DNA of 51,369 nucleotides, from the NCBI RefSeq assembly GCF_028712165.1, contig NZ_JAQTQR010000004.1, forward strand, positions 7,102 through 58,470. Reading direction: 5' to 3'. The notes beneath the pieces were generated by a model, which saw nothing but the letters and a program-made list of their open reading frames with translations, was not told where the DNA came from and did not search any database. The stretch comes from Sulfuricurvum sp. GTDB lineage: Bacteria > Campylobacterota > Campylobacteria > Campylobacterales > Sulfurimonadaceae. This document shows, piece after piece, positions 25,706-31,507 of the stretch. Made by a program: the position numbers and the translations under genes. Position 1 is the first letter of the stretch. Every line of letters begins with the position of its first letter.

Positions 25706-25787
25706 TTGATTCCTTAAAGCAGTCTAAGCATAAAAAACCCTTAAGGTGAATATAACATCGTTTGCACTATTATCCCAAAAGTTAAAC

Positions 25788-25804
25788 AAGACTAATTTAG
25801 TCTT
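25788..25804. promoter_or_regulatory. IscR type 1-like palindrome upstream of nifS
   Basis: AAGACTAATTTAGTCTT is a 17-base near-perfect palindrome 29 bases before nifS. Its core, GACTAATTTAGTC, fits the IscR type 1 core pattern GACT-RWWWY-AGTC at every position. Type 1 sites bind Fe-S-loaded IscR and repress isc genes. A TATTAT at 25768-25773 may be a -10. No iscR gene is in the window, so the regulator would be an unlinked Rrf2-family protein. Confidence 0.5.
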
Positions 25805-25811
25805 TTATTAG

Positions 25812-27047
<1,236 letters not shown>

Positions 27048-27058
27048 AAGGAACCACT

Positions 27059-28033
27059 ATGGCAAAAAATGATCTATTGGGCGGATCTCTTTGGGATCAG
27101 TACTCAAATAAAGTAACTACGTTGATGAATAACCCTCATAATCAAGGTGAAATCAGCGAAGAAGAAGCTGCAGCGGAAGGACACAAACTGATCGTTGCCG
27201 ATTTTGGAGCGGAGAGTTGCGGTGATGCCGTCCGTTTATACTGGGCGGTCGATCCTGCTACGGATACAATTGTAAAATCAAAATTCAAAAGTTTCGGGTG
27301 CGGTACGGCGATTGCAAGTTCAGATATGATGGCAGAGCTTTGTATCGGAAAAACGGTTCAAGAAGCGGTCAAAATTACGAATATCGATGTGGAAAAAGCA
27401 CTTCGTGACGATCCGGAAACTCCAGCTGTTCCACCTCAAAAAATGCACTGTTCGGTTATGGCATATGATGTTATCAAAAAAGCAGCAGGGCTTTACCTCG
27501 GTGTGGATGAGAACAGTTTCGAAGATGAGATTATCGTGTGCGAATGTGCCCGTGTAAGTCTTGGAACGTTGCGTGAAGTCATTAAGCTCAATGATCTTAA
27601 AACGGTTGAGCAGGTAACCGATTATACGAAAGCTGGCGGCTTTTGTAAGTCTTGTATCAAACCGGGCGGACATGAAGCGCGTGAATACTATCTTGTTGAC
27701 ATTCTCGCTGATGTACGTGCTGAAATGGATCAAGAGAAAATGCGTTCCGCTGCAGATGCCGGAGCGATGGGTGACTTTGAATCAATGACACTGGTACAGA
27801 AAATCAAAGCGATTGACAGTGTTGTGGATGATTCCATCCGACAGTTCTTGGTCATGGACGGCGGTAATATGGAAGTTATCGATATTAAAGACTCTCCGGA
27901 ATATATCGATGTCTATATCCGTTATTTGGGTGCATGTAATGGATGTGCGAGTTCAAGTACCGGAACATTGTATGCGATCGAAGCGACACTCAAAGAAAAA
28001 CTTTCTCAGAAAATCCGCGTATTACCAATTTAA
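27059..28033 (+). CDS. nifU: NifU Fe-S cluster scaffold
   Basis: The full three-part NifU plan is present in 324 residues. The IscU-like N-domain has cysteines in ESCGDAV, GCGTAIASSD and MHCSVMAYD. The central [2Fe-2S] part has CECARVS and CKSCIKPGG. The C-terminal Nfu domain has the CNGCASSSTGT cluster site. I chose the ATG at 27059, after AAAGGAA. An earlier frame from 27029 would overlap nifS and add 10 odd residues. It builds and transfers Fe-S clusters using sulfur from NifS. Confidence 0.95.
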   Translation: MAKNDLLGGSLWDQYSNKVTTLMNNPHNQGEISEEEAAAEGHKLIVADFGAESCGDAVRLYWAVDPATDTIVKSKFKSFGCGTAIASSDMMAELCIGKTVQEAVKITNIDVEKALRDDPETPAVPPQKMHCSVMAYDVIKKAAGLYLGVDENSFEDEIIVCECARVSLGTLREVIKLNDLKTVEQVTDYTKAGGFCKSCIKPGGHEAREYYLVDILADVRAEMDQEKMRSAADAGAMGDFESMTLVQKIKAIDSVVDDSIRQFLVMDGGNMEVIDIKDSPEYIDVYIRYLGACNGCASSSTGTLYAIEATLKEKLSQKIRVLPI

Positions 28034-28070: not shown

Positions 28071-31000
28071 TTAAATCACCACGAAATCGGCATTGGTGAG
28101 GGTAGGGTGTGAACCGCTTCCGAGGATGGCAAACTGGACTGCGGCACCGCCACCTGATCCATCCGCATCGTAGCTCAGTGCCCCGGTCGTCATGTTGTAG
28201 ACGATATAGTCGTCTGCGTCTTGTGCCAACCCATTAACGCTCGCTACAAAATTGGAAGCGTTTAGGGTACTGATCGATGTCAGTGCGCTGAAGATTGCGT
28301 TATCCAGTTGGATACTGTCGGTTCCGTTGGTGAAGTCGGTGATCGTGTCTTTGTTGGTGCCGGCATTGAGGGTTGTATCGAATACAAAGGTATCTGATCC
28401 TTCGCCCCCGGTCAAAGTATCGTTTCCACCTCCACCGTTGATCGTGTCGTCTCCGTTATATCCCCGAATGATATTATCCGAACCGTTACCGCTTAGAATA
28501 TCGTTGTAGTTACTCCCATACAGTCTTTCAAAATTCAAAATCGTATCGTTTCCGTTCCCGATGGTATTCTGAACGCCAGTTATGTTTAATGAAACGGTAA
28601 CTCCCGCACCCGAATCGTAATACGATACGGCATCGATTCCATTTCCCCCGTCTAAAATATCGTCTCCTGTTCCTTTGCCCGCGTAGATGATATCGTTTCC
28701 GTCCAGACCCAATATCGTATTGCCTAAAGCGTTTCCTCTCAATGTATCGTTATAGTTTGACCCAATGAGATTCTCGAAGTTCAAAACCGTATCCACTCCG
28801 GCCCCAACCGTGTTCTGTGCCGTAGTCGTTTTAATACTCACTCCGACTCCGGCACTAGCCGTAGCGTAACTCAAGGTATCGATTCCATCTCCCCCGTCTA
28901 GGGTATCGTCACCAACACCTCCGTCGATCGTGTCATGACCCAAACCACCATCGATTGTGTCGTTCCCTACCCCTCCGGAGATCGTGTTGTCTCCCGTATT
29001 TCCGGTTAATACATCGTCATATGAACTCCCGATGATATTCTCGATACTCATCAAGATATCTATCCCAGCACTTCCGGTGTTCTGTGCTGATGTATTCGAT
29101 AATGCTACGCTCACTCCTCCGGCGGCCGTAGCATACGATACTGTATCCATGCCGTTTCCGCCGTCGATAGTATCGTTTCCACCTCCACCGTTGATCGTGT
29201 CGTCTCCGTTATATCCCCGAATGATATTATCCGAACCGTTACCGCTTAGAATATCGTTGTAGTTACTCCCATACAGTCTTTCAAAATTCAAAATCGTATC
29301 GTTTCCGTTCCCGATGGTATTCTGAACGCCAGTTATGTTTAATGAAACGGTAACTCCCGCACCCGAATCGTAATACGATACGGCATCGATTCCATTTCCC
29401 CCGTCTAAAATATCGTCTCCTGTTCCTTTGCCCGCGTAGATGATATCGTTTCCGTCCAGACCCAATATCGTATTGCCTAAAGCGTTTCCTCTCAATGTAT
29501 CGTTATAGTTTGACCCAATGAGATTCTCGAAGTTCAAAACCGTATCCACTCCGGCCCCAACCGTGTTCTGTGCCGTAGTCGTTTTAATACTCACTCCGAC
29601 TCCGGCACTAGCCGTAGCGTAACTCAAGGTATCGATTCCATCTCCCCCGTCTAAAATATCATTTCCATCTTTGCCTTCAATAGTGTCATTGCCTCCGAAC
29701 CCGGAGATTGTGTCAAAGCTTCCGTTCTCGATTAAGTCACCCGAAAGAATATCATCGCCCGATGTTCCGTTTAATACCAGATCATCCCGTACGGAGATAA
29801 TCTGCACCAGTGTGCTCCCTGTGGCGCTCAATGCTCCTCCAGTACCCTGATCGCTCACATTGCCGTCATTGAAGACCCAATCTATCTGTATGCTAGAAGG
29901 TGGCATATCACTAGTATTGCTGTAAGCGATGGCATGTACGGTTTGATCCACTAGCGTCTGGGTTGCATTAGCATTAAAAGAGATGACGAGTGTTCCATCC
30001 GCATAATAATAAGTACCGACTACAGTTCCGGATACACTTACGTCTCCCTCAGATGTTCCGGCTACGATTCCGGCTCCGGAAAACTGATCTTCGATGTTTG
30101 CATCACCGTGTCGTGCCAGAGTCAATGTCGATCCGTTGTAGTTATCGATTGTTTTGAGCTCGGTATCACGGATAGTGCCGCTGCTCCCCATGAGAGTGAC
30201 CGGTGTCCCATTTTCGATATAGGTCAGGTCCTGAATCGCCGTTGTAACGATTCCATCACCATCAAAAGAGGTATCCAGCGAGCCGTCGATGTTATAACGG
30301 ACCACAGTAAAATCTCTACTTCCGTCGATCGTAGCGGTTCCGACTACGACAATTTTTCCATCCGGCTGCAGGCTCATGCTATAACCGATATTAGAATCTG
30401 TACCAATGTCGGTCGATATTTTACCGCTGACACCGAAAGAGGTATCCAGCGAGCCGTCGATGTTATAACGGACAATTGCAAAGTCGGTAGTAGAGTTTGT
30501 AGCGTAACCACCCAACAGGATTTTTCCGTCAGATTGAATTACGACACTATAGGCAATATCCGCTGATGTTCCAACCGGAGTGATTATCATCCCGTCATCG
30601 CTGAAAGTGGTGTCGAGCGAACCGTCGGAATTGTACCGGACGACGGCGAAGTCGCTACTCGACCCGCTACCGCTGAAACCGGCGACGATTATTTTTCCGT
30701 TATCCAGAACAGTGACACTTTGGGCGGCTGAGTAATCGGATACGGCGGTCAATACAATGCCGTCACTGTCAAAGGACGTATCGAGTGAACCGTCGCTGTT
30801 ATACCGTACAAGGGCGAAAACCTCGTTACTGAATCCGGCCACCAAAATTTTGCCGTCTGCTTGGAGAGTGATATCTTTGCCGGAATCAAAATTAGTTCCC
30901 AGATCGGTTGACACTTTTCCGTTAGTGCCGAAAGTGGTATCGAGTGAACCGTCACTGTTATAGCGGGCAAGGGCAATATCGTTTGTGTTATTTGTTGTAC

Positions 31001-31442
31001 CGGCAGCCAGAATTTTCCCATCCGATTGTACAACAATGCTATTGATCGAGTCGTAGGAAAAAAAATTCGTAGTAACCATACCGTCGCCGTCGAAGGTTAT
31101 ATCAAGTGTACCGTCGCTGTTATAGCGGACGATAGCAAAATCATTATCATTGGATGCATTTCTACTTGAACCGGACAAAAGGATCTTCCCGTCATCCTGA
31201 ACTATTACGGAGTCGGCAGAATCATAACTGGTGCCGACTGCCGTTATCACGATTCCGTTATCGCCAAGGGTAGTATCAAGACTGCCGTCACTGTTATAGC
31301 GGACAAGGACAAAATCGTATTTGCTGCCGTTGGCACGGTAGCCTCCCACCACAATTTTGCCGTCTGGCTGAATAAAGACGCTTTGTGCCGTATCAGCAAG
31401 ATTATTTCCTGTAAAAAGAGTGGGTGGCGTGTTGATGGACAT
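28071..31442 (-). CDS. Delta-60 repeat / RTX calcium-binding protein, probable type I secretion substrate
   Basis: The ATG at 31442, after AAGGA, gives 1123 residues and no Sec signal. Residues about 10-395 hold seven delta-60 repeats of about 55 residues, each with PDGKI-like and RYNSDGSLDTTF motifs. About 400-545 is a cadherin-like beta domain. About 550-1010 contains RTX-type glycine/aspartate repeats of the GGxGNDxI kind that bind calcium. The last 110 residues, with GSDTFVFDT and a hydrophobic end (DFVVI), look like a type I secretion signal. The secretion genes are not nearby. A 251-residue offset repeat in the RTX part is encoded by identical DNA. It may be a surface or adhesion protein. 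Confidence 0.8.
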   Translation of the reverse strand: MSINTPPTLFTGNNLADTAQSVFIQPDGKIVVGGYRANGSKYDFVLVRYNSDGSLDTTLGDNGIVITAVGTSYDSADSVIVQDDGKILLSGSSRNASNDNDFAIVRYNSDGTLDITFDGDGMVTTNFFSYDSINSIVVQSDGKILAAGTTNNTNDIALARYNSDGSLDTTFGTNGKVSTDLGTNFDSGKDITLQADGKILVAGFSNEVFALVRYNSDGSLDTSFDSDGIVLTAVSDYSAAQSVTVLDNGKIIVAGFSGSGSSSDFAVVRYNSDGSLDTTFSDDGMIITPVGTSADIAYSVVIQSDGKILLGGYATNSTTDFAIVRYNIDGSLDTSFGVSGKISTDIGTDSNIGYSMSLQPDGKIVVVGTATIDGSRDFTVVRYNIDGSLDTSFDGDGIVTTAIQDLTYIENGTPVTLMGSSGTIRDTELKTIDNYNGSTLTLARHGDANIEDQFSGAGIVAGTSEGDVSVSGTVVGTYYYADGTLVISFNANATQTLVDQTVHAIAYSNTSDMPPSSIQIDWVFNDGNVSDQGTGGALSATGSTLVQIISVRDDLVLNGTSGDDILSGDLIENGSFDTISGFGGNDTIEGKDGNDILDGGDGIDTLSYATASAGVGVSIKTTTAQNTVGAGVDTVLNFENLIGSNYNDTLRGNALGNTILGLDGNDIIYAGKGTGDDILDGGNGIDAVSYYDSGAGVTVSLNITGVQNTIGNGNDTILNFERLYGSNYNDILSGNGSDNIIRGYNGDDTINGGGGNDTIDGGNGMDTVSYATAAGGVSVALSNTSAQNTGSAGIDILMSIENIIGSSYDDVLTGNTGDNTISGGVGNDTIDGGLGHDTIDGGVGDDTLDGGDGIDTLSYATASAGVGVSIKTTTAQNTVGAGVDTVLNFENLIGSNYNDTLRGNALGNTILGLDGNDIIYAGKGTGDDILDGGNGIDAVSYYDSGAGVTVSLNITGVQNTIGNGNDTILNFERLYGSNYNDILSGNGSDNIIRGYNGDDTINGGGGNDTLTGGEGSDTFVFDTTLNAGTNKDTITDFTNGTDSIQLDNAIFSALTSISTLNASNFVASVNGLAQDADDYIVYNMTTGALSYDADGSGGGAAVQFAILGSGSHPTLTNADFVVI
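28416..28900 (-). repeat. 485-bp perfect direct repeat, copy A (within RTX gene)
   Basis: By line-by-line comparison this segment is identical to 29169-29653, offset by 753 bases (251 codons). The identity includes third codon positions. It stops abruptly at both ends: copy A is followed by GGGTATCGTC where copy B has AAATATCATT. It encodes the C-terminal of the two repeated blocks. Confidence 0.9.
29169..29653 (-). repeat. 485-bp perfect direct repeat, copy B (within RTX gene)
   Basis: This is the second copy of the identical segment, separated from copy A by 268 bases that encode a diverged, but related, RTX block. Both copies keep the reading frame. Homologous recombination between them would delete or add 753 bases without a frameshift. 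Confidence 0.9.
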
Positions 31443-31507
31443 GCAAAAATCCTTATAAAAAGTTATCAAATGAATATAGTTTAACTATAATCATTAATCA
31501 AAAAAGT

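Follow-up and report, generated by a model that had tools for sequence, protein, structure and literature searches.

The perfect palindrome just before nifS in a Sulfuricurvum sp. genome is one version of an operator conserved throughout nearly all of the Campylobacter phylum. Judging from comparative sequence data, it is most likely bound by an Rrf2 repressor specific to the Campylobacterota, here called C3, whose cluster-loaded form would repress and whose loss of the cluster would derepress. Among open PMC papers, our searches found none that describes the regulator or the operator.

The palindrome and the nifSU promoter

In the window (the whole stretch of 51,369 nt analysed), GACTAATTTAGTC is read at 25790-25802 on the forward strand as an exact match to the IscR type 1 core GACTRWWWYAGTC. 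A pattern search finds this one match in the window, compared to a mean of 0.01 in shuffled sequences. Direct reading thus confirms the first-pass annotation, in which a palindrome at 25788-25804, just before nifS, was said to fit the type 1 core at each position. The features of the locus are as follows.

25768..25773, + strand: predicted −10 hexamer TATTAT, placed by the hexamer offset common to most distinct promoters
25785..25807, no strand assigned: 23-bp operator from the class-wide alignment, consensus about AATTARGACWAAWTTWGTCYTAATT; matrix score 19.1 at this site
25788..25804, no strand assigned: 17-bp perfect palindrome AAGACTAATTTAGTCTT, which contains GACTAATTTAGTC; read directly and by pattern match with shuffles
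25833..27047, + strand: nifS, cysteine desulfurase, presumed first gene of the operon (TIGR03403, PF00266)
27029..28033, + strand: nifU, Fe-S scaffold, as the listed open reading frame (27062 is the likelier start; PF01592, PF04324, PF01106)

The palindrome ends 28 bp before the nifS ATG (25833). The NifS product scores 729.9 bits against TIGR03403 (nifS_epsilon, cut-off 587.7) and is 96% identical to NifS of the nearest named relative, and NifU has a modular, three-domain architecture that does not reach TIGR02000 (219.5 vs 273.3 bits). With NifS and a modular NifU, the target belongs to the NIF system. A second NifS copy, 60-63% identical, was found in all eight genomes of the family that were tried (L347 on contig 76 of this genome, and L340-L346), and the operator is absent at this paralogue in 8/8 (maximum matrix score 1.3). 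Adjoining the 3' end of nifU on the opposite strand is a gene for a 1132-aa protein (28071-31469, − strand) with delta-60 repeats, RTX-like calcium-binding repeats and an internal duplication.

Among 109 distinct promoters, 75 have their best −10 hexamer starting 16-18 bases upstream of the operator. From this sequence geometry we infer a nifS transcription start near 25780, which would put the operator at about +5 to +27. A position just past the predicted start suits a roadblock.

A scan of all 2.72 Mb of the genome, as proposed in the first-pass annotation, finds the 13-nt pattern 5 times and its reversed control once. Three of the four exact matches other than the nifS site lie within coding frames and one (contig 45) beside fliD, and we set them aside as coding or unsupported. 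With up to 3 mismatches to the 17-mer there are 10 places genome-wide (controls 10 and 8), and with fewer than 3 the nifS site alone. Neither the mismatch nor the pattern search found a second convincing operator in this genome, so the regulon here may be nifSU alone. Chance is best excluded by the conservation of the site at nifS across relatives.

Conservation of the operator at nifS

A NifS search matched 176 of 200 class genomes, and from a second search, of named public genomes, we retained 80 loci. Promoters were read as a first set of 30, with 40 more by stretch, and a second set of 80; the two sets are not independent, some promoters being identical or nearly so. Group f2 of the class genomes was taken as Helicobacteraceae. 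The operator, also seen at nifS in consensus scans early on, is present at nifS in 87/87 promoters outside Helicobacteraceae and Thiovulum, with scores of 10.9-28.7 (shuffle maximum 12.3) from a matrix trained on those same 87 promoters. Among promoters left out of the matrix, 28/28 non-f2 promoters were positive, all scoring at least 17.7, for a total of 115/115 outside the two groups. In the matrix scan of nifS promoters of Helicobacteraceae and Thiovulum, 0/33 had the site (maximum 3.2); two further f2 promoters scored 11.8 (L032, a weak site) and −1.3, so that 34/35 lack it. The first-pass annotation had staked its reading on the palindrome being conserved in nifS promoters of relatives, and the alignment bears this out.

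In f5 genomes (L246-L250) nifS is without the operator, and a TTGAT-N4-ATCAA-like palindrome of CRP/FNR type lies ∼60 bp upstream instead.

A candidate regulator

The reading had likewise hung on there being an Rrf2-family gene in the genome, and three were found. One of them encodes C3 (contig 84, L007, 1495-1899, − strand), lies directly before flhA and carries the pattern Cys-X6-Cys-X7-Cys. C3 belongs to the Rrf2 superfamily both by profile cut-offs (TIGR00738, 106.7 bits vs 73.3; PF02082, 100.1 vs 30) and by its predicted winged-helix fold. The structure model has a mean pLDDT of 90.5 and gives 37 solved-structure matches at E ≤0.001, with Rrf2 proteins leading. In an alignment of C3 proteins selected from the retrieved loci, C91, C98, C106 and Glu8 are invariant (19/19), and in a tree that joins E. 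coli IscR and NsrR to 72 Rrf2 proteins of the Campylobacterota, C3 is one clade with support 98/98. The C3 relatives of f5 are divergent, with Ala as residue 8 in the members seen, and in L200, a Campylobacter-like C3, the full three-cysteine pattern is missing, the sequence there being CSNGIYPNHKENC.

C3 is present in 136/137 genomes outside f2 and in 0/63 within it (136/200 class genomes); the sole non-f2 exception, G028, has a divergent C3 relative (L194). Thirteen f2 genomes do have some Rrf2 protein, all of other types. Among named genomes, C3 was found in 8/9 with the operator and in 0/8 without it, two of the latter being Thiovulum. The exception, a Sulfurimonas single-cell genome with the operator and no full C3 match (1.5e-11), is perhaps an incomplete genome. 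The joint absence of site and C3 may represent one or two losses only.

In 17 genomes with the operator at nifS, C3 is the only Rrf2 protein. The other two Rrf2 proteins of this genome, L006 (CymR-like by its best model, at 116.4 bits, below that model's cut-off of 195) and L008 (outside the C3 clade), were rejected as the binder because their types are missing from these 17 genomes. An operator-like site also precedes the C3 gene itself in 7/49 C3 loci, compared to 0/31 loci of other Rrf2 genes (Fisher p 0.027), and in 8/49 with a 150-bp window; these sites are spread over about five lineages. The C3 gene of this Sulfuricurvum is without the operator (matrix score −8.2). The site thus tracks a three-cysteine Rrf2 subfamily, and the prediction of an Rrf2-family regulator for a NIF system is, by comparison of genomes, well supported.

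The C3 gene abuts flhA, which suggests that an Fe-S regulator and a flagellar export gene share one transcript. In C. jejuni, the gene next to Cj0882c (flhA), Cj0883c, is listed as encoding an Rrf2 regulator (PMC11202532). In a transposon screen of C. jejuni 81-176, a mutant in an Rrf2 gene had a mouse colonisation defect (PMC5438104); the mutated gene may be C3 or another, and the phenotype is possibly a polar effect on flhA.

Comparison with known Rrf2 regulators

E. coli IscR resembles C3 in having an Rrf2 fold, three cysteines and, as predicted for C3, Fe-S assembly targets and self-regulation, and its type 1 sites share the GACT-N5-AGTC core with the palindrome of this genome (PMC3899308, PMC5411485). 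The 13/13 core positions fit at our site and the full core is found in 6/87 nifS sites, but against the 25-nt type 1 consensus our site fits at 19/25 positions and at none of the four YY/RR flank positions, and those flanks are found in 0/87 nifS sites. By comparison, a site in the iscR promoter of E. coli itself fits 24/25. The flanks of the putative C3 sites are the opposite, with purines before GAC, and unlike iscR the C3 gene lies outside the assembly operon. C3 has the three cluster cysteines of IscR, but it is 24% identical to E. coli IscR and scores 56.1 bits against the IscR equivalog TIGR02010, far below the cut-off of 207.55. Aligned to E. coli IscR, it has Lys for Gln44, Ala for Glu43 of the recognition helix, and no residue aligned with the cluster ligand His107. 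Ala at position 43 lets apo E. coli IscR bind type 1 sites (PMC5411485, PMC3899308).

Among footprinted operators the best likeness is to GAC-N7-GTC, the one bound by Myxococcus RisR. This pattern in AT-rich flanks describes our site and is exact in 46/87 nifS sites; many others have GAT/ATC, or one half that differs. RisR, an Rrf2 protein of group IS6 from Myxococcus xanthus, has the footprinted palindrome T(t/g)GAC-N7-GTCC(t/a) with AT flanks, and its holo form represses the isc and suf operons (PMC9973013). Like C3, it is an Rrf2 protein with three cysteines and with recognition residues unlike those of E. coli IscR (PMC9973013). The published cysteine positions of RisR are C92/C102/C108 (PMC9973013), a spacing that differs from C91/C98/C106 in C3. 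The RisR gene adjoins suf and RisR controls isc and suf (PMC9973013), whereas the C3 gene adjoins flhA and the sites lie at nif, suf and others.

Among solved structures, RsrR comes nearest to C3 in both sequence and fold, followed by IscR and CymR. RsrR of Streptomyces venezuelae aligns with C3 at Glu8 and at LAK of the recognition helix, and has His33 vs Leu33 in C3. RsrR is a redox regulator, and its targets differ from the candidate targets of C3. Thr41/Ala44/Lys45 of Streptomyces coelicolor NsrR resemble Ser38/Ala41/Lys42 of C3, and residue 8 of NsrR is likewise acidic, serving there as a cluster ligand; unlike C3, NsrR has NO detoxification targets and another operator (PMC5411485).

The type 1 label is rejected because both the flanks and the family cut-offs fail. 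In place of 'IscR type 1', the operator and its candidate regulator are better described as Campylobacterota-specific and RisR-like.

Other candidate targets

In genomes without a NifS match at E 1e-40, the operator lies at a divergent sufB/nifU-like promoter. Further Fe-S genes with the operator are sufB, mrp, nfu and one for a thioredoxin-like [2Fe-2S] ferredoxin, and the genes for Tpx and superoxide reductase, which defend against oxidants, have it too; the families were assigned by domain search. Among the matches listed we tabulated 75 sites, leaving out G093 and G135. The target gene classes were set after the neighbors had been seen and several sites are orthologous copies; so counted, 24 of the 33 strong non-f2 sites listed face nifS (two of the 24), sufB/nifU, mrp, nfu, tpx, superoxide reductase or [2Fe-2S] ferredoxin, and 3 of the 42 weaker or f2 sites listed face a gene of the target classes, all hydA. 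The strong sites L311, L312 and L327 face genes without a clear Fe-S link.

Two very strong operator matches, both at position 1501, are L266 (27.3) and L272 (26.4); their neighbors, which we take to be thiG-like and NapA/FmdE-like genes, are possible further targets. Eleven f3 g8 genomes (L285-L295) have in common TTAAGATAAATTTTGCCCTAA (one with ACCC), scoring 13.8-15.7 and located, in those with a called gene start, ∼80 bp upstream of a gene for an amino-acid-binding protein. These sites, and L333, a strong f2 site (22.5) before a threonine-synthase-like gene, were treated as chance or unrelated.

Proposed mechanism and alternatives

In the mechanism that we propose, a cluster-loaded C3 dimer would bind just downstream of the nifSU start and block transcription. 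The cluster would be held by Cys91, Cys98 and Cys106, and perhaps by Glu8 as a fourth ligand. On exposure to oxygen or oxidants, or when iron is short, the cluster would be lost, C3 would fall off, and more NifS and NifU would be made, closing a feedback loop of the kind known for IscR and RisR. Repression by holo-C3 is suggested by the analogy with RisR and IscR, by the position of the site and by a joint protein rise in C. jejuni; because of Ala41, C3 may have an apo-binding mode. A chemostat study of C. jejuni found a joint increase of NifS, NifU, Mrp and Tpx once aerobiosis exceeded 100%, and did not settle how oxygen is sensed (PMC5656828). SodB and AhpC rose too under oxygen stress (PMC5656828) and are not among the operator targets predicted here.

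The palindrome might instead be read by another class-wide regulator (Fur, PerR or a CosR/HP1021-type protein) with C3 as a bystander, since Helicobacteraceae are without many genes besides C3. We consider this unlikely: sites precede the C3 gene itself and not other Rrf2 genes, and the site is absent from Helicobacter, where Fur and HP1021/CosR-type proteins occur. Fur controls nifS in H. pylori, and the earlier remark that iron control of NIF systems has mostly been linked to Fur fits Helicobacter, which has neither the site nor C3. In C. jejuni, the main text of a Fur/PerR study names neither nifS nor nifU (PMC4491227).

A genuine type 1 operator bound by an orthologue of IscR would account for the complete 13/13 core and the three-cysteine Rrf2 protein, but is very unlikely given the 19/25 fit at our site, the core in 6/87 and the flanks in 0/87 nifS sites, and the low IscR score, Ala for Glu43 and missing His107 of C3. 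Most improbable of all is an RNA hairpin in the nifS leader, acting as an attenuator or stability element. The repeat does lie within the predicted leader and its RNA folds at −5.2 kcal/mol (z −2.92), but the hairpins are weak, the GAC...GTC letters are fixed with a symmetry that reaches into the AT flanks, and the same repeat occurs between divergent sufB/nifU-like genes and up to 226 bp from an mrp start, placements that suit a DNA operator.

Implications

Fe-S assembly is vital and oxygen-sensitive in microaerophiles such as these. If C3 is the repressor at nifS, it may, more tentatively, be the sensor of Fe-S status and oxygen that the ancestor of the Campylobacterota already had. It would then follow NIF or SUF, whichever the cell uses, command cluster carriers together with peroxide and superoxide defence, and be wired to flagellar export via flhA; with its loss from Helicobacteraceae and Thiovulum, nifS in these groups would have come under other control, e.g. 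by Fur. A candidate sensor, operator and regulon can now be named for an oxygen response of the C. jejuni type. Helicobacter is a common model for the NIF system of Campylobacterota, and it may mislead about NIF regulation in the rest of the phylum.
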